In this document: one piece after another, positions 11,853-37,706 of the stretch | How the letters are laid out: every line of letters begins with the position of its first letter | Position numbering within the stretch: the stretch's first letter is position 1 | DNA from: a virus | Virus record (IMG/VR): IMGVR_UViG_3300010375_000035 | Coordinates: 1-37,706 of that record | DNA: 37,706 nt | Reading direction: 5' to 3' (one strand) | Position numbers and translations under genes: made by a program | Notes under the pieces: model-generated | The model's database searches: none | What the model was told of the DNA's origin: nothing | Seen by the model: only the letters and a program-made list of their open reading frames with translations

Positions 11853-12563
11853 TTATCTAACACCCGCATCCCGAGCAGCCTCAAGCCACATGTCATCATA
11901 TGGCCCACCCTTCCAGCCTTTGAGCCAGCACGATCCGAGCGTTAAATGAGCGATGTCGACCCGATCTGGCTTCTCGCGCACGCCGCATAGCCAGTTCCAA
12001 GAATCGGGTAGCTCTCCGATCTCCTCATCGTGTAGCCAACGGAAGGCGTGCAGATCGCGACCCGGCGTATTGTTCAAGACACCGAGTGTCAGACGACGGT
12101 TAGCCGTATGGTCGGCGTTATAGAGCACGACGCTGCTCCAGTTCTTTTTCGGATACGACGTCTGCAGGGCCCCGACCATTTTCACCGACGACGAATCAAG
12201 CTCCGGATGCTTCACGCACATGACGGCATAGCGGTCGTCGGCGAGCGCGAATAGTTTTGCGATGTCCGATTGCACAATGACATCGCAGTCTAGAAATAGG
12301 CCCCAGCCCGAATGCGCGAGGATCGGCACAAAGAAGCGTGTAAGCGCGAATGTCGACGACATCGGTGCTTTAGATAGGATGTCCCACGTAATGCCCTCGC
12401 GGACCTCGAAGCGGCGCCATAGCAATTGCCATTTTCTGAGTTTGTCCAGATCGAGTGGGATGACTTCGACTGGGCAGCTCGCATGCTTGCGCAGAGAATG
12501 TTCGGCCACGCGATAGGCATCGTGCTCTTTGGGATCATAGCCGATCCAGACGCGGGCAATCAT
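11853..12563 (-). CDS. GT8-like glycosyltransferase
   Basis: 236 residues. The fold signature is clear: ARVWIGYDPKEHDAYRVAEHS at the start, STFALTRFFVPIL near residue 70, then GLFLDCDVIVQSD with a metal-binding D-x-D at residues 92-94, and later LHAFRWLHDEEIGELPDSWNWL. This matches a family of glycosyltransferase family 8-like proteins known from phages and bacterial surface-polysaccharide loci, which transfer a sugar from a nucleotide sugar. Donor and acceptor cannot be read. ATG 12563 has a strong GGAGG four bases upstream, which lies in the remnant of the preceding gene. It is the last gene of the sugar cassette. Confidence 0.85.
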   Translation of the reverse strand: MIARVWIGYDPKEHDAYRVAEHSLRKHASCPVEVIPLDLDKLRKWQLLWRRFEVREGITWDILSKAPMSSTFALTRFFVPILAHSGWGLFLDCDVIVQSDIAKLFALADDRYAVMCVKHPELDSSSVKMVGALQTSYPKKNWSSVVLYNADHTANRRLTLGVLNNTPGRDLHAFRWLHDEEIGELPDSWNWLCGVREKPDRVDIAHLTLGSCWLKGWKGGPYDDMWLEAARDAGVR

Positions 12564-18524: not shown

Positions 18525-19373
18525 TCAACGCGCGCTGGCGGCGTCGCGGCCTTTGTCCCCGCGCTTGGTCATGAGGGTCCATGCCTTCGCGCCCTCGACT
18601 GTCTCAGGCCGCTCCTCGGTGTGTTCGTTGCAATGCCACGTCGAGCCGCCCCAAGTCACGACGTCGCCGCGCACGAAGGCGCCGGCGCGCCATACGCCGC
18701 GGTAAATCATCTCTTGCGTCATCCGGCGCGTTACAGCCTCTTTGCCGGATGCGAAGACGTGCCGCGTCTCGATCTCGCGCTCGCCAATATGGCGCTCGAC
18801 GACGTCGTGCAAGCCATCCAGGAGGCATTCCCAACCGTCCATGCCCTCCGTCGATCGCATTGCGCGCCAGATGCCACCGCGATGCGCGGCGTAGGTATTC
18901 TTCGGATACGAGCGCGCCTCATCGATCGAGGGCTGGATTTGCAGCGCGATTGCATCGCGCCCCGGCTCGCCCGGGATGCCGTCGCGGCCGTCCCTTGGTT
19001 CGGGGATGGCGGCAAGAAAATCTGTCACCTGTTTCTTGACGTCGCCGACGACCGCGGCGACATCGACGCTAACACCATCGGCCCCATCGGCACCGTCGCG
19101 TCCATCCTTGCCATCCTTCGGCGGCTCGATCGCGCCGAGAAATTCCCCGACACGCTTCTCGACGTCGCGTAGAACCGCATCGACATCGATGCTGACCCCG
19201 TCGGCACCCTTGGCGCCGGGCTCACCGTCTCTGCCGTCGCGTGGCGTCGGGAGCGCATCCAGGCGTTCGCCGATGGCGCGCAGCTGTTCGGAGATCGGAG
19301 CCAGCGCGGCTCCGATCAGCGCCTTGAAGGAAGAGACGGTCGCAGCCGCCAGTGCCTCGTGTTCGGTATTCAT
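18525..19373 (-). CDS. Collagen-like fibre protein with C-terminal carbohydrate-binding-type domain
   Basis: 282 residues. Helical N-terminus, then three short Gly-X-Y/RDGRDGEPG blocks near residues 44-60, 86-101 and 126-140, each followed by a repeated helical segment (VSIDVDAVLRDVEKRVGEFLGAI and its copy VSVDVAAVVGDVKKQVTDFLAAI). Residues about 225-275 (YRGVWRAGAFVRGDVVTWGG then STWHCNEHT) are a carbohydrate-binding module 5/12-like domain often found on phage fibres. ATG 19373 has AGGGG seven bases upstream. Likely a trimeric accessory fibre. Neighbour of the lyase, which fits surface-glycan recognition. Confidence 0.8.
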   Translation of the reverse strand: MNTEHEALAAATVSSFKALIGAALAPISEQLRAIGERLDALPTPRDGRDGEPGAKGADGVSIDVDAVLRDVEKRVGEFLGAIEPPKDGKDGRDGADGADGVSVDVAAVVGDVKKQVTDFLAAIPEPRDGRDGIPGEPGRDAIALQIQPSIDEARSYPKNTYAAHRGGIWRAMRSTEGMDGWECLLDGLHDVVERHIGEREIETRHVFASGKEAVTRRMTQEMIYRGVWRAGAFVRGDVVTWGGSTWHCNEHTEERPETVEGAKAWTLMTKRGDKGRDAASAR

Positions 19374-23170: not shown

Positions 23171-25054
23171 TTAGGTCAAGCCCGTGCCAGAAATAATCCA
23201 TTCCGTGCTGGCGATCTTGACGGCCGTCGCGACGCCATCGGCCGCCAGCGACCGGCTTCCCGTGGTGCCTGCACCCGCGAGTCGCATAGTGTCCGACGTG
23301 ATCGCGATCGTAATCACGCCAGCGCCATGCTGATTGATGAAGGTCAGCGTCGTGCCGACGTCATAAGGGACATTGGCATTCGAGTCGATGGTGAACGTTC
23401 GCGCCGTCGTATCTGCCGCAGGATGAAAAAGGCACTTCCCCTTATCCGAAGCGACTGTTGTGTAGGCCGTGCTCTGGGAGTTCAGCGGGATCTTAGAAAT
23501 CGCCGCCTGCACGAAGGCTGTCGTCGCGAGTTGCGTCGTGTCGGTTCCGACGGAGGCCGTCGGTGCCGCAGGCGTCCCTGTCAACGTAGGCGACGCGAGG
23601 GGTGCATAGCTTCCAAGCGCGGACTGAACGAAAGCGCAGGTCGCGAGCTGCGTCGTGTTCGTGCCGCCCGTAGCCGTCGGCGCGGCCGGGGTTCCGGTAA
23701 ATGTCGGAGAAGCCAGCGGCGCGAAACCCGAAACCACGAACGCCGTGGTCGCAATCTTCGTGCTGTTATCGCCCCCGCTCGGGGTTGGTGCTGCGGGCGT
23801 ACCCGTAAAGGTTGGGCTAGCAATGTTCGCCTTCAACGCAGCGATGGCATCGGCATAGGCCGTCGTGGCAATCTGGGTCGAGTTCGTCGCCGGCGTCGCA
23901 GTCGGAGCGGTCGGCGTCCCTGTGAGTGCGGGCGACGCGAGCGGGGCCTTCAGCGCCAGATTCGTAATGGTCGCGTACGTCGAGGCGGCCGTCGCGGCGG
24001 TAAGGCCGTCGGTGATGCCATAGCCCGATAGTGTCGTCGGTGCGCTCGTAATCTGCGACCAGCTGATCGAGAGCGACGCTTGGTGCTGCGTGACATTGCC
24101 TGCCGTGACGCGGCCATTTGGGATCGATCCTGTTCCGAGGTCCGAGGCACTGCCGGAAGTCGCGATCGCAGCGAGGCTCGAGCTGGTGGCCTTGGCATCG
24201 AGCGCTGATTGCAGGTCCGTCTGGGTGCTGAGCGTCCCGGTGATGTCGCCCCATGCGACGCCCCCACCGGAGGGCGGCGATGCGAACGTCCCATCTGCGC
24301 GAAGGAAATCGGTCGTTCCGCCGGGAAAGCCTGTGAGATCGCCCACATCGCCGGAGGTCGCGACCGCGGCAAGGTCTCCAGGCTGCACCGCCGAATCTGC
24401 CGTGGCGCCCTGCGCCGCCGTCGCGAAATCGGTGGCCGCATGCGTGGCCGCGGTACCGAGATCCGCACTGTCCGCCTTCAGGTCGAGTGCCGTCTGCAAG
24501 TCGGACTGAGCTGACAGTGTCCCAATGATCGCGCCCCAGGTCGCGCTGCCGCCCGTGACGGCCTGCTCCCACGTTGCGTTCTTACGCCAATACGGCAGAT
24601 TGTCGACAGGCGCATCGGTGATACCGGAAGCACCGCCACCGCCCCCACTCCGATCGTTGACGTAGCGACTTTCGCCCGCGCGACCGGGCTCACCGGGCGG
24701 ACCCTGCAGATCGGTGAAGGCACCCCAGACGCCGGGCGCGAGCTCGAACGCGAGCTTCGTGCCGTTCCACACATGCTTGGGCATCGGCCCGGCGGGACCG
24801 CGCGGACCCTCGGGGCCGGTAATGGAATTGCCGGGAATGCCCGGGCGCCCCGGATCACCCTTGGGGCCTGGCGGACCTTCGGGACCGATGATCGATTCGC
24901 CGGCGGGACCCCGCTCACCTTGGGGTCCCTGTGGACCCTCGGGACCGGCCGGACCTTCTGGACCTACCGGGCCGCGCGCGCCGGATTCACCCGGGGGGCC
25001 CGGAGTTCCCGGTGCGCCGTCGCGGCCGTCGCGGCCGTCACGCGACGAAGCCAT
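23171..25054 (-). CDS. Collagen-like tail fibre
   Basis: 627 residues from ATG 25054 (GAGG six bases upstream, 17-base overlap with the previous gene); an upstream in-frame ATG at 25096 lies inside that gene. Residues 5 to about 90 are near-continuous Gly-X-Y collagen-like repeats ([20 protein letters not shown]). A small globular part ([19 protein letters not shown]) follows. The middle holds the fibre repeat [20 protein letters not shown]; residues about 400-540 are four copies of a [15 protein letters not shown]...[11 protein letters not shown] repeat, typical of siphophage side-fibres. The C-terminus (VTIAI...RLAGAG) is beta-rich. Probably a homotrimeric side or tip fibre for host recognition. 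Confidence 0.9.
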
Positions 25055-25490
25055 GCTCGACCTCGCGCGCCGTCGCTTGCTCGATCGAACGCACAAAATC
25101 TGCGATCGTGGCGCGTTCCTGCATCAACTCCGCCAATTGTCGGCCAATCTCCTCGCTGATGATCGGACGAACATCGTCCAAAGTGACCGACGTTCCGTCG
25201 CGACCGGGATCGCCGGGCGGTCCGCGGTCGCCGTCCCGCGCGACCGGCAACGCTGCCAGCGCCGCGCCAATCGCCGTGTCGATCATGGATTGGATGATCT
25301 CGACTGTGATCGCCGATCCAGCCGGTTCCTGCGGGATGCCGATGGCTTTGCGCAACGCCTCCGGATTCGATAGGAGCTCCATTTGCATCGGCGTGAGCGC
25401 GCGCGCCTTGATGGCAGCGATATCCGCGACAATCGCCTTTAGCGTCGGCGCGAGGCCGCGCAGGATCGCTTCGAGATCGGTAGCGTTCAT
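25038..25490 (-). CDS. Small collagen-like/coiled protein between portal and fibre
   Basis: 150 residues. ATG 25490 overlaps the portal stop (ATGA) with GGAGGG just upstream. Alpha-helical N-terminus and C-terminus flank one collagen-like insert ([15 protein letters not shown], residues about 85-99). The whole layout matches one repeat unit of the 18525-19373 product, hinting at a common origin. Possibly a fibre-attachment or capsid decoration protein. Its gene sits where a head protein would be expected. Confidence 0.65.
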
Positions 25491-28030
25491 GCACCCTCCG
25501 CGGCGAGCGCGCGTTCGATGTATTCGTTCGTACGCGCAATGATGTCGTAGGACGTCAGGGCCTTCCCTTCCTCGTCAGCCTCATCCGCCGGAGCCGGAGG
25601 AGCCTCGGCGGTTGGCGTGACCGGAGTGACTTCGACAACACCCGGCGGCGATCGCTCGGCGAGGATGCTGAGCGGCCAATACTGCTGCTGCGACAACGGC
25701 TCGTCGCCGCCTTCGACCGGCGCCAAGTTTTCCATGAGCCGCGCCTCGTTGGGCGCCAATACCATCGACTGCACGCCCGTCTGATACGTCGCATACCGCG
25801 CCTGCGTATCCATGCGCAGCAACGGCGACAGATCGAACTCGGTTCCTTGGTCAGATGGCAGGTCGAAGCCCTCATCCAGCAGGAGCTCTATGCCCTCCAT
25901 GATCGCCTGCAGCGTCTGCGTGTAGTACATGCGCTGCATCGCCTCGATGTTCTTGTCGCCGGGGATAGGGCCGGCGTCGAGCATATAAAGCGGAACCCGG
26001 AAGCAATTGTGTGCAACGCCACCCACGGTCGTATAGGAGTGGTCATCTTCGACTTCGAGATTATAGACCGGCCCTGAATACATTGACTTCTCCGCTTCAT
26101 CCAGCGAGAAGAAAGCCAGTTCTTCGGTCAGCCCCATCGATCCTCTCCTATTCGAATCGTGGCGCCATTGCAGCTGGTAAATCTCTCGGTTCATACCGGA
26201 CGAACCATTTATCTCGTAAGCAGCCTCCGCAACAGTTTGCATAGAACTGTTGATGCCTTGCGCCCACAGGATGACGCGCGCCTGCCAGATTGCCGTCTTG
26301 CTGACCATCTTCAGGACCGTGCGGTCGCCGTCAACGCAGCCATCGCCATCGACGAGTCCATCTATGACTCCGGCTAGGAATTCCGCCGACTGGGCCATGC
26401 ACCATTCTGGCATTGCCTTGTTGTGTGCGCCGACGCCGAACTGTTTGAAGAATCCAGTGACAACAAGATTGGATATCGTTGTGCGCGTCACCGCGCGCGC
26501 TGTCTTTGTGTCTGACCTAGCACCGAAGACACTGGATATGCGACTCTCCAGAAGCGCAGTGATGTCGCTCTCATGCTCGCCGATATAGAACGAGACTTGG
26601 TGATCGGAGGCGGTCCCATCTGCCGCGAACAATCCGCATAGCCAGCCCAAGTCGTAATCGGCCTTGATATGGCGATTGACCCATGTAGCGCGATGATTCA
26701 TTGATGCACGCACGCGGTCTGCTTCGATGTTGGCGCCTTCCGGCGCCCAAAGCGCTACGTCAACTATCTCGGTAGTGCTATTGCGCAAGCGCGGCATGAC
26801 CAGATTGTGGAACGGACGACGCGAGCGGACACCGTTTCCCAATCGTGGTGCCGCGATCAGCTGATCAGCGCGCATCCATTCAGCATCGCCCATGGCCTCG
26901 ATGCTATGTGTGCGATTCGGCTTTGCGGTCTGGACAAGAAATGGATGATTACCTGTTGAAGTTATTTCCTTAAGGCCTTTGGCGCGCATGCGCACAACGG
27001 GTCCGACGTAATCATTTTTCAACGTCTCATACACACGACGCCAGCGACCCTTATGAGTCAGCACCATGTCGCCGACCACGACATCTTCAATGGCCTTAAT
27101 GCCATTGCTGGTAATGATCTCGGTACCAGGAATGAAGCAGCGCGCGACATCCTCTACGGTCCATTTCAGCTGCTCGATGAGCTGCGCATCGGTTGCAGGC
27201 ATCGTCATCGCCTCGTACTTGAGGCCGTTGCCGGCAACAAGGAGGCGACCAATGTTCGTCCCGCCGAGCGCTTGCTCGAACTGCGTCTTGAGGCGCGCCG
27301 CCGTTTCGTCGTCGATCTGCGCCGGCGCCGTCAGCATGCCGGAGGGGCGTGACATGTTCTCGAAGAATTTCGCCGACTGCGCCTGGATGCGATTACCTTG
27401 CGTCGCCGAGGCGCCGCAGGCGTAGATCGGCGAAACACCGACCAGCGGATGCCATAGGCAATTGATGCGATCGTGAATGATTTCGGAGGCGGGAATGCGC
27501 ACGCCATCCGGAATGCCGGCGAGGCAATTGCTCGCGAGTTGGTACCAGATGCTCCCGTCCTCGGCGACGCAGGGCATCGCCATGTCGCCACGGAGCACGT
27601 AAAGGTTCGTGACGACGCCGCGTTTGTCGCGCTCCTTCAGCACGTAGGTATTGCCGAAGAGCATCAGCGAGATGACCCACTGCGTGAAGAACTGAATGCG
27701 CGTCTGATAACGGTTAGGCTTGCGCAGCGGAATCCAGAATGGCGAGTTCGCCGGCGCGGGTTTCCAGATGCCGTTCTCTTGCCGCTGCGTGAGATTACAT
27801 GGCAGCTTGCCGATGTCGCTTGAGACGATTGAGACGCAGCTGTACACCGCTGAGAACGCGAGTACGCAGGCGCGATTATCGCATTCGAGATTCCTCTGCC
27901 AAGCACCCGTGAACGGTTCGCGCACCACGCCGTAAACATCGCGAGCCGTCAGCGCCGAAATGATGGATTTCGTGCGCCCGACCACCCACGCACCACCGAC
28001 GCGGGCAATCGTCATTCCGAAGGCTTTCAC
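25487..28030 (-). CDS. Portal protein with in-frame intein
   Basis: 847 residues as read, GTG start at 28030 (GTGA overlap with the preceding stop, AAGG seven bases upstream). The first 297 residues and the last 172 together form an HK97-type portal (Phage_portal): ACVLAFSAVYSCVSIVSSDIGKLP, SLMLFGNTYVLKERDKRG, ENMSRPSGMLTAP and, when joined, WTVEDVAR-CFRVPLYMLD. A 378-residue intein (298-675) interrupts the protein inside the conserved EDVAR/FRVP helix. After splicing the portal would be 469 residues, normal for the family. The portal forms the dodecameric DNA entry ring at one capsid vertex. C-terminal residues are Pro/Glu-rich. Confidence 0.95.
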   Translation of the reverse strand: MKAFGMTIARVGGAWVVGRTKSIISALTARDVYGVVREPFTGAWQRNLECDNRACVLAFSAVYSCVSIVSSDIGKLPCNLTQRQENGIWKPAPANSPFWIPLRKPNRYQTRIQFFTQWVISLMLFGNTYVLKERDKRGVVTNLYVLRGDMAMPCVAEDGSIWYQLASNCLAGIPDGVRIPASEIIHDRINCLWHPLVGVSPIYACGASATQGNRIQAQSAKFFENMSRPSGMLTAPAQIDDETAARLKTQFEQALGGTNIGRLLVAGNGLKYEAMTMPATDAQLIEQLKWTVEDVARCFIPGTEIITSNGIKAIEDVVVGDMVLTHKGRWRRVYETLKNDYVGPVVRMRAKGLKEITSTGNHPFLVQTAKPNRTHSIEAMGDAEWMRADQLIAAPRLGNGVRSRRPFHNLVMPRLRNSTTEIVDVALWAPEGANIEADRVRASMNHRATWVNRHIKADYDLGWLCGLFAADGTASDHQVSFYIGEHESDITALLESRISSVFGARSDTKTARAVTRTTISNLVVTGFFKQFGVGAHNKAMPEWCMAQSAEFLAGVIDGLVDGDGCVDGDRTVLKMVSKTAIWQARVILWAQGINSSMQTVAEAAYEINGSSGMNREIYQLQWRHDSNRRGSMGLTEELAFFSLDEAEKSMYSGPVYNLEVEDDHSYTTVGGVAHNCFRVPLYMLDAGPIPGDKNIEAMQRMYYTQTLQAIMEGIELLLDEGFDLPSDQGTEFDLSPLLRMDTQARYATYQTGVQSMVLAPNEARLMENLAPVEGGDEPLSQQQYWPLSILAERSPPGVVEVTPVTPTAEAPPAPADEADEEGKALTSYDIIARTNEYIERALAAEGA
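26006..27139 (-). mobile_element. LAGLIDADG homing intein in the portal gene
   Basis: Residues 298-675 of the portal product. The first residue is Cys (CFIPGTEI, block A). Block B has TSTGNHPFLV with the T-x-x-H motif. Two LAGLIDADG motifs are visible: LGWLCGLFAADG (about residues 461-472) and FLAGVIDGLVDGDG (about 551-564), so the homing endonuclease looks intact. Block F is VYNLEVEDDHSYTT, and block G is GGVAHN followed by extein Cys676. All nucleophiles required for splicing (Cys298, Asn675, Cys676) are present. The DNA is visibly more AT-rich than the flanking portal, fitting recent acquisition. Removing it leaves an ordinary portal. Confidence 0.95.
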
Positions 28031-28307: not shown

Positions 28308-29684
28308 TCAGTAGCTGACGCCCTTGAGGTAGGCCACGGCACCGTCGCGGCGACGCTTCCAACCGACGCGGTGCTCGGAACGCAAGCCGACGAGGTTGGA
28401 TTGCCATAGCGACGTGAATACCGTCGACGCCGACGGCGGATTGTCCGGAGCGGTATTCATCTGCAGCGATGCTTCGCGCGAGATGTCGAGCTCGATGCCG
28501 CCGTCTTCGGCGAGGAAAATCTCCGCCGCATCCATCAGCACGATGTAGGTGTCGTCACCCGTGTCGATCGGCACGTTCGCGGACGTCACGACCGGCCAGC
28601 CGAAGAAGGTGCCGCCGGTCATCGAGATGCCCGGGAACGCGAGAACATCCTGCGTCGTGCGCAGCGTGCCGAGATACTGCGCCGTCCGCGGATGCATGAC
28701 GAACACGCCGCGCTCGGGATAGATGTTCGCGGCGATGAAGGCCGTGACGAGCTTGTTGACGTCGGTCGTGATGGCCGCGATCGTCGTGCCCGAGATCGTA
28801 TAGTTCGTCGCGCCATTCGTGATGGCCGCCGGACGCACCCCGGCCGACACCGCCACGGTGGGATCGATGAACTGCTGATCCTGATACTGACGGATCGAGG
28901 CGAGCAGATCGTCGCGAATGACCGCTTCCGCGGAGGGCGTCGAATAGCGCGCCAGCTCCTCGGTGATGACGGTGATGACCGAGATCTTTGTCGGCGGCAT
29001 CTGGATGGTTTCGAACGCCTGCTTGGACACCGGCTTCGGCGCACCCTCACCCACCCATCCCGCGCTCGCACCGCCCGTCTGGCGCGGCATCGAGACCATG
29101 AACGGGATGTTGCGCAGACCACCCGGAATGCGGCCGATGATCGTGGTCGGACGCAGGAGCTCGATAAACTCGTTCTGCATCGGGATATATGGAGCCAGCG
29201 GACCCGCGAAGGTCGAGTCGGTAATCGTGCCGGATGCCACCGCCGTCTTCCAGAACATCTCGACCTCGGGCGTATCCTTCCACGCCGGGTCGTTTTTCGC
29301 GATCTCGACCGCGTGCATCGGGTTGCCCTTGGCGCGAATTAGCGCCTGCACCGAACGCACGAACGCGGTGCCCTTGGGCAACTGGCGCTGCGCGGTGACA
29401 TACGACGAGCGCGAGCCTTCGGTGACGGTGTCGCGGCGCGCGTTGTTTGTATTCGTATCGACGACCTGCGCAGTCGCCGCGGCCGTCTGGGCCTGCTTGC
29501 GAAGGCGTACGAGATGCGCGTCAATGTCGTTGACATCGGATTCGAGACCGTCGTATTCGGTCGCCTCTTCGGTGGAAAGGCCACGCCCTTCCTCCGCTGC
29601 CTTGTTCATCATGTCGGACATGCGCGCGGCCTTGGCCTGGCGCGTGCCCTCGAAGGCTTGGATCTGTTCCTGCCACGTCTTCAT
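28308..29684 (-). CDS. Possible internal-start product: capsid with delta domain alone
   Basis: ATG at 29684 is Met185 of the fusion (MKTWQEQIQAFEG), exactly where an HK97 capsid precursor normally begins. GAAGAGG at 29693-29699 lies eight bases upstream, better than the site of the full gene. The 458-residue product would be a normal delta-domain-plus-capsid chain. In this model the fusion supplies a few protease chains and the internal start supplies most capsid. Proposed from sequence only; the frame is identical to the fusion gene. Confidence 0.55.
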   Translation of the reverse strand: MKTWQEQIQAFEGTRQAKAARMSDMMNKAAEEGRGLSTEEATEYDGLESDVNDIDAHLVRLRKQAQTAAATAQVVDTNTNNARRDTVTEGSRSSYVTAQRQLPKGTAFVRSVQALIRAKGNPMHAVEIAKNDPAWKDTPEVEMFWKTAVASGTITDSTFAGPLAPYIPMQNEFIELLRPTTIIGRIPGGLRNIPFMVSMPRQTGGASAGWVGEGAPKPVSKQAFETIQMPPTKISVITVITEELARYSTPSAEAVIRDDLLASIRQYQDQQFIDPTVAVSAGVRPAAITNGATNYTISGTTIAAITTDVNKLVTAFIAANIYPERGVFVMHPRTAQYLGTLRTTQDVLAFPGISMTGGTFFGWPVVTSANVPIDTGDDTYIVLMDAAEIFLAEDGGIELDISREASLQMNTAPDNPPSASTVFTSLWQSNLVGLRSEHRVGWKRRRDGAVAYLKGVSY

Positions 29685-30236
29685 CGGGGATGCCTCTTCG
29701 GTCGATTTCGCCGAGACGCCGGCGATGAGTTTCACGGGGGGGCGGCCTGACGCGGCCAGAATGGATTTGTCATAGGAGCGGATTTCGCTGATCGTCGCCT
29801 TCGGCTGGGCCGGAATGCTGACCAACGAAAGCTCCAGAATTTCGCATTGTAGGAAGCGAAGGCCTCCGTTCTGCATGACCTCGACAGCATTGTCGAGCGC
29901 GCGGAAACCGATCGATACTGCGCGGATAAGCCCGTATTTCAGCGACTGCCAGGCCTCGTCGACGCGATCCTTGAGCGCCCCCGGCTCGGTGACCTTGGGC
30001 AAGCGCGCCTCGAAGGTGATGCCATCCGCCGTAGGCTTATCGAACTTGACCGTTCCGATCGGTGCCAGCGAATCATGCTGCCAGAGGAGCGGCGAGGGAT
30101 TCTTGAACTTGGCGCCCGTCGGTACGACGATGTCGCCCATCCGGTCTGGAGAAGGCGTGGTTGCGGTACCGCGGATGACACGCTCGTCTTCATCGACAGC
30201 CTTGACTGTGAGCTCGGAATAGGCGCGCTTGAGCAT
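28308..30236 (-). CDS. Prohead protease-major capsid fusion protein
   Basis: 642 residues. Residues 1 to about 160 are an HK97-type prohead protease (S78): LLWQHDSLAPIG with His54, IRAVSIGFRA with Ser108, then LELSLVSIPA with acidic residues near 132-135. Residues about 185-280 are helical and acidic, like the HK97 delta scaffold domain. Residues about 285-640 are an HK97 major capsid: NEFIELLRPTTIIGRIP, PPTKISVITVITEELAR, and SREASLQMNTAPDN...TSLWQSNLVGLR at the end. Such fused protease-capsids are known in a minority of phages; self-cleavage would free the capsid. The start ATG 30236 has GGAG ten bases upstream. An internal start at 29684 could give free capsid as well. Confidence 0.95.
   Translation of the reverse strand: MLKRAYSELTVKAVDEDERVIRGTATTPSPDRMGDIVVPTGAKFKNPSPLLWQHDSLAPIGTVKFDKPTADGITFEARLPKVTEPGALKDRVDEAWQSLKYGLIRAVSIGFRALDNAVEVMQNGGLRFLQCEILELSLVSIPAQPKATISEIRSYDKSILAASGRPPVKLIAGVSAKSTEEASPMKTWQEQIQAFEGTRQAKAARMSDMMNKAAEEGRGLSTEEATEYDGLESDVNDIDAHLVRLRKQAQTAAATAQVVDTNTNNARRDTVTEGSRSSYVTAQRQLPKGTAFVRSVQALIRAKGNPMHAVEIAKNDPAWKDTPEVEMFWKTAVASGTITDSTFAGPLAPYIPMQNEFIELLRPTTIIGRIPGGLRNIPFMVSMPRQTGGASAGWVGEGAPKPVSKQAFETIQMPPTKISVITVITEELARYSTPSAEAVIRDDLLASIRQYQDQQFIDPTVAVSAGVRPAAITNGATNYTISGTTIAAITTDVNKLVTAFIAANIYPERGVFVMHPRTAQYLGTLRTTQDVLAFPGISMTGGTFFGWPVVTSANVPIDTGDDTYIVLMDAAEIFLAEDGGIELDISREASLQMNTAPDNPPSASTVFTSLWQSNLVGLRSEHRVGWKRRRDGAVAYLKGVSY
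29693..29699 (-). promoter_or_regulatory. Internal ribosome binding site for capsid
   Basis: GAAGAGG followed by an eight-base spacer and ATG, inside the protease-capsid fusion gene. Spacing and purine run are close to ideal and sit at the domain border, which chance placement would rarely do. Confidence 0.5.
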
Positions 30237-36840: not shown

Positions 36841-37706
36841 TCACGTCTCCAGAACAGGCTTATACGTCTCAGCGGTTTCCCCGAACGTCCATGCAACGGC
36901 CTCGTGCGCCGTGCGCATGGTCGGGGGCACCCTGATCATATATTCCTTGAAGCGCGCATCTGACGGAGCGCGGACTGCCGCACCTGCGGCATCGCCGAAG
37001 GCTGCGATAGCTTCTTCGCGCGACATCACGCCGTCGGGCTCCGGCGTCGAATTGAGCACGCGCACCATGACGATCGGTTCGTCGTCAGTTACCTCTTTGC
37101 GGTACAAGAGGCCAACCGAATCTCGGTGGATGATCTTGGCGTCGGTGTCGAGCAGATAGCGGATCGCGCCATAGCGCTCAATCATCACGCGCCGAAGTTC
37201 GGCATTGCTCTCAGCCGTAATATGTTCGGTCGTGATGCTCTTCGGATTCTCAATAATGTCGGATGGAACGATGACACCATGCACAGCATGGATAGCCCAA
37301 CCGTCGCGATACGCGATTGCTGGACCGTCTGCGCAATGCAGGCGCCCCTGATCGTCGCGATTGACTACGCTTGGACGGTCGCTGATAGCGAGCACGTTTT
37401 CGTGCCACCAGACCCAACCGCATGACTTCGACAGTTGTTCGTCGATCTCGAATCTTTCGAGAACGGGATCGCTCCAGCCGAGCACGTCGCGCATGAAGGC
37501 GACATACGCAATCCAGCTGGCCCAGAAAGCGCCACCGCGGGAGTTGTAGAGAGCCGACCTGACCTGCGACCCGACCTGCGACCCGACCTGCGACCAGACC
37601 TGCGACTCGACCTGCGACCAGACCTGCGACTCGACCTGCGACCTGACCTGCGACTCGACCTGCGACCCGACCTGCGACCAGACCTGCGACCTGACCTGCG
37701 ACCAGA
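36841..37706 (-). CDS. DUF6745 protein with SQV repeat, N-terminus cut by window edge
   Basis: The frame is open from the window edge at 37706 to TGA 36841-36843 (at least 288 residues read here). An internal ATG at 37494 is not the true start. The N-terminal part is twelve tetrapeptides W/G/E/R-S-Q-V, then a short aromatic linker ([12 protein letters not shown]). The main domain has [37 protein letters not shown], then [17 protein letters not shown] and [10 protein letters not shown], the DUF6745 pattern. DUF6745 is of unknown function and is widely seen with QV repeats. The stop lies just before a coupled membrane protein gene. A structural, repeat-tethered, membrane-linked protein is a guess. 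Confidence 0.85.
37561..37704. repeat. 12-bp tandem repeat encoding [WGER]-S-Q-V
   Basis: Twelve uninterrupted 12-base units GACCTGCGACNN (plus strand), of which only the last two bases change: CC, CC, CA, TC, CA, TC, CT, TC, CC, CA, CT, CA. The minus-strand reading is one variable codon (GGG, TGG, GAG or AGG) plus TCG-CAG-GTC. It runs to the edge, so the total count is unknown. Confidence 0.97.

Follow-up and report, generated by a model that had tools for sequence, protein, structure and literature searches.

The window, i.e., the whole stretch of 37,706 nucleotides analyzed here, is an IMG/VR virus contig in which a phage portal gene is interrupted by a coding insert. With a probability of about 0.93, we regard this insert as a complete, bifunctional mobile intein of class 1, which excises itself to leave the native HK97-type portal of 469 amino acids and probably homes via its LAGLIDADG domain. 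The intein would be translated in frame inside the portal precursor, after which an N-S acyl shift at Cys1, transesterification to Cys+1 and cyclization of the terminal Asn would release it and leave the native portal behind. The probable target of the LAGLIDADG domain is an empty portal allele, cleaved at the conserved codons of the helix end and the FxVP motif; repair of the cut allele would copy the intein into it, which would constitute homing. The element is relevant mainly to specialists in inteins and in phage packaging; it gains additional interest from its closest relative, which another portal carries in the corresponding helix at a distance of exactly two codons.

The Interrupted Portal Gene and Its Surroundings

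The precursor ORF (positions 25487–28030, on the minus strand, as are all window features given below) starts with GTG and encodes 847 amino acids. It consists of an N-extein of portal residues 1–297 with WTVEDVAR as its last residues (27140–28030), the intein of 378 amino acids (precursor C298–N675; 26006–27139), and a C-extein of 172 amino acids plus the stop codon (25487–26005), which begins with C676-F-R-V-P, this Cys (26003–26005) being the +1 nucleophile. The first-pass annotation had predicted that an ordinary portal would be restored by removal of the intein, and this proved correct: the joined exteins (297 + 172 = 469 aa) are matched by the profiles PF04860 (Phage_portal, E 3e-72) and TIGR01537 (1.6e-59), each in two stretches, and the spliced sequence matches an HK97-type portal of solved structure (8cez, E 9e-26) as well as other portals. 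Judging by these sequence matches, the host gene is the HK97-type portal gene of an uncultivated tailed phage. A 6-bp direct repeat, TGCTTC, is present at both junctions of the intein (27134–27139 and 26000–26005), where it encodes Cys-Phe at either end.

A single ORF of 642 amino acids (28308–30236) encodes the prohead protease fused to the HK97 major capsid protein, and the order of the protease/capsid fusion, a small gene and the portal gene is common to the window and Salmonella phage FSL SP-016. Two more genes, 25038–25490 and 18525–19373, about 6 kb apart and separated by collagen-like/tail-fiber and PKD-domain genes, match phrog_1289 (“portal protein”) at positions 60–157 and 95–329, respectively. 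At the contig end, a DUF6745 protein is encoded (36841–37494, E 2e-60). The megablast search of window positions 12001–37000 against 50,697 phage records returned no match, and the search for tRNAs and Rfam families found none.

Splicing Blocks and Intein Class

The ends of the intein are exact, as shown by the joining of the exteins and by the NCBIfam splice-region models, of which TIGR01445 (intein_Nterm) matches from residue 298 and TIGR01443 (intein_Cterm) at residues 654–676, both with E-values of about 1e-5 to 1e-6, and the Hint models PF13403, PF14890 and PF05203 together with the LAGLIDADG_3 model PF14528 match within the insert. A chance resemblance is excluded by the portal match (E 3e-72), by these intein-end matches and by 33 relatives free of the insert (see below).

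The complete set of splicing blocks noticed in the first-pass annotation was found at these exact ends. Block A provides the nucleophile Cys1 (C298; 27137–27139), and block B, GLKEITSTGNHPFLV (26933–26977), contains the TxxH motif in the form T62-G-N-H65 (intein numbering). Blocks F and G, VYNLEVEDDHSYTTVGGVAHN (26006–26068), supported by TIGR01443 and by an alignment of 30 inteins, end with His-Asn immediately before the +1 residue (VAHN/C676; here and below, a slash marks the junction or insertion point). The first LAGLIDADG motif, LGWLCGLFAADG, forms block C (26615–26650), and the second one, LAGVIDGLVDGDG, forms block E (26339–26377; PF14528). The block D Lys (K241; 26417–26419) is presumably the catalytic residue of the endonuclease, as established knowledge of LAGLIDADG enzymes would have it. 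In the 30-sequence alignment, C1, H65, K241, N360, H377 and N378 are invariant, while T62 and G265-D266-G267 are nearly so. Class 3 is ruled out, as block F, VYNLEVEDDHSYTT, is devoid of Cys and Cys1 is present; therefore, the intein belongs to class 1.

Predicted Fold, Activity and Composition

The AlphaFold model of the intein (pLDDT 92.3, pTM 0.89) consists of a Hint domain and a two-motif LAGLIDADG endonuclease. The Hint fold was also recognized by Foldseek, whose best PDB matches are homing-endonuclease inteins, TliVMA (7qsu, E 3e-19) and PI-SceI (1vde), and which matched intein-bearing viral proteins as well. The presence of two LAGLIDADG motifs, reported earlier from reading the sequence, is confirmed: both retain their Asp (LCGLFAADG and IDGLVDGDG), and in the model they lie on two helices, 162–174 and 252–266, with acidic residues. 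It was sound to call the intein “apparently active”, because its blocks are intact and its fold is confidently modeled. Considering the sequence together with the model, splicing is very likely and endonuclease activity is likely.

The GC content of the intein is 54.8% versus 61.9% in the exteins (GC3, 61% versus 78%), the other ORFs of the window having GC of 51–67% and GC3 of 46–81%. Hence the first-pass description of the intein DNA as AT-rich is valid in comparison with the exteins, but not with the other ORFs of the window. The direction and timing of the transfer we infer, and the argument for recent entry that had been drawn from composition is weak, because the GC content of the intein lies within the range of other window genes.

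Empty Sites and the Insertion Point

The search of IMG/VR with the N-extein returned 36 portal loci. All 33 loci spanning the insertion site (including a few near-duplicates) carry no insert, their N- and C-extein matches being contiguous. Aligning inteinless portals at the junction had been proposed as a check, and the relative L020 reads VEDVARCFRVP there, which is exactly the predicted spliced junction of the window portal. Of the 38 alignment rows (the window portal counted), 18 have Cys at +1, and the others have A, T, V or P or are cut off at this point; among the inteinless relatives, the share with Cys is slightly below one half. By the established chemistry, splicing is expected only in alleles with a nucleophile at +1. 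In a published case, +1 Ser versus Pro distinguishes invaded from uninvaded sites (PMC10643990), and the pattern at the window site agrees with it.

Within the clade, the site is not unusually conserved, as 10-residue segments around it rank about 147th–246th of 460. In a structure model of the inteinless relative L012, which is of moderate confidence (pLDDT 70 overall and about 80 at the junction), the junction is located where helix 271–290 ends, directly before the FxVP turn. The site had been placed inside a conserved helix; it does belong to the helix, but to its last turn before FxVP rather than to its middle. Without splicing, the portal would be expected to lack activity.

The IMG/VR relatives provided no second allele at precisely this insertion site, so that homing there is unobserved. 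The site differs from those of the portal inteins compared, of which L139 and the second intein of L063 lie two residues upstream and most others at a site further upstream (site a, see below). Junction-pattern scans of IMG/VR for the exact site gave one N-side and 15 C-side matches, all attributable to chance by their reading frames and neighbors. The single-sequence search of IMG/VR with the intein and the search of GTDB genomes with the N-extein returned no match; a profile search of these genomes did reveal intein relatives, but their flanks are not portal-like.

Alternative Interpretations

It is rather doubtful that only the splicing half works, the endonuclease being dead or decaying and the intein being inherited vertically after the loss of homing. 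The lack of a same-site allele elsewhere, with 33 of 33 spanning relatives empty, and the PF14528 match covering just 55 of 82 positions are in line with such decay; however, both LAGLIDADG Asp residues and the block D Lys are intact, the domain fold is predicted with high confidence, and the sparse distribution fits recent or rare homing equally well. Much less probable is conditional splicing, dependent, e.g., on redox state or temperature, which would make the intein a switch on portal assembly and not a parasite only. Control of this kind was proposed by other authors for terminase inteins (PMC7156551), the nucleophiles of the window intein are Cys, and splicing of the portal presumably has to precede ring formation, so a delay would time packaging; nevertheless, neither a sensor nor a supporting motif was seen in the intein sequence, and inteinless relatives encode the same portal without such control.

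The insert could also be thought of as a domain native to the portal or as a chimera produced by assembly, since the contig is a metagenome assembly without a close isolate. This idea is hardly credible and is largely refuted by the exact intein ends, the presence of all splicing blocks in a single open frame, the 33 relatives lacking the insert and a 49% identical relative on an independent contig.

A Related Intein Two Codons Upstream

The closest known relative of the window intein, which very likely splices and probably homes, is the intein of L139 (IMGVR_UViG_3300047160_014581), with 49% identity over the full length. It likewise resides in an HK97-type portal, in the same helix, and has matching splicing and LAGLIDADG anatomy, but it belongs to a different portal lineage and is inserted two codons upstream (FDIEEL/CRWFHVP versus VEDVAR/CFRVP). 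The offset was reproduced in three alignments, at positions 227 versus 229 of PF04860, 242 versus 244 of TIGR01537, and in MAFFT columns 571 versus 573, gapless. Both empty forms exist in nature, that of the window in L020 and EEICRWFRVP in Paraburkholderia phage IPK (L252). Each of the two inteins uses the local native Cys of its own portal lineage as the +1 nucleophile, this Cys preceding the F of FxVP by three residues in the L139-type portals and by one residue in the window-type ones. Compared across their flanking DNA, the two joined empty forms have 41 of 81 positions in common. The TGCTTC repeat was considered as a cause of the offset; it may blur the insertion point in DNA, but downstream only, and therefore it leaves the offset unexplained.

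The endonuclease of an intein is usually regarded as tying it to a single insertion point. Being 49% identical and residing in homologous portals, the window and L139 inteins provide a small, testable case of intein site change. Tentatively, a single portal-invading lineage with a sliding target may have shifted its insertion by exactly 6 bp within the conserved helix, tracking the available native Cys, so that the two inteins would descend from a common ancestor and not from separate long-range transfers; we consider this possible, though short of probable.

In the intein tree, the window and L139 inteins group together (support 100/99), terminase inteins are next to them in the larger tree (94/81), and the other closely related portal inteins form a separate group (100/100). 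A single clade of portal inteins (seven tested) is unsupported in the larger tree but not rejected (AU p 0.26), and constraining the “site-b” inteins to one clade makes the log-likelihood worse by 33.7 (AU p 0.077), both groups having been named after the tree was seen. As their sequences indicate, other portals and the large subunits of terminases harbor more distant kin of the window intein.

Portal Inteins Elsewhere and Comparison with Known Systems

Profile searches of IMG/VR revealed portal inteins in L059/L060, L061, L062, L063, L081, L139 and L147. With these, nine portal inteins besides that of the window, recognized by sequence on IMG/VR contigs, are new here, five of them sharing an upstream site. 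In the spliced-portal alignment, the column of this site (site a) is common to L059, L061, L062, L063 (first intein), L147 and Eggerthella phage LE2-3; the insertion position of L081 is uncertain in this alignment, and the window portal is empty at site a (VYS/CVSIV). The second intein of L063, at FAETRI/CGAFGV, lies two residues upstream of the window site. The portal ORF of this contig (L063:865–4647) contains two separate full inteins (LVYS/C at site a, and FAETRI/C), both ending with His-Asn, and an ORF of L062 (3530–9166) encodes a portal fusion of 1879 amino acids with two inteins, the second of which is inserted away from site a and ends with Cys-Gly-Asn/Thr instead of His-Asn. Host genes of the remaining intein relatives were mostly called from flanking peptides and confirmed by Pfam or PHROGs for some only. 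On the viral contig L069 (3431–5743), a LAGLIDADG intein interrupts a transposase gene of the IS110 type, and the flanks in L152 and L155 are similar. On IMG/VR contigs, portals thus appear, like terminases, as a recurrent intein niche, several of these portals being invaded at a common upstream position and two of them bearing a pair of inteins each.

The first-pass remark that inteins are less often reported in portals needs correction, since they are already on record for cluster C1 mycobacteriophages, Gordonia phage Lahirium and Eggerthella phage LE2-3. Six portal inteins were described in cluster C1 (PMC5050341); these PORT inteins reside, like the window intein, in phage portal proteins, and their host portal was assigned to the orthologous group POG1190 (PMC5050341). 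In Gordonia phage Lahirium, an intein-like Foldseek match to the window intein falls in the annotated portal. The intein of Eggerthella phage LE2-3 is full-length and has the blocks in common with the window intein, but its identity to the latter is 24–26% and it occupies the upstream site a (VMRA/CLEVY), aligned to VYS/CVSIV of the window portal. TliVMA and PI-SceI (7qsu, 7qss, 1vde) share the Hint plus two-motif LAGLIDADG architecture with the window intein, whereas their identity to it is 13–15% and their hosts are VMA ATPases. Because portal inteins are already present in the literature, the window intein is a well-supported addition to an already known type of element.
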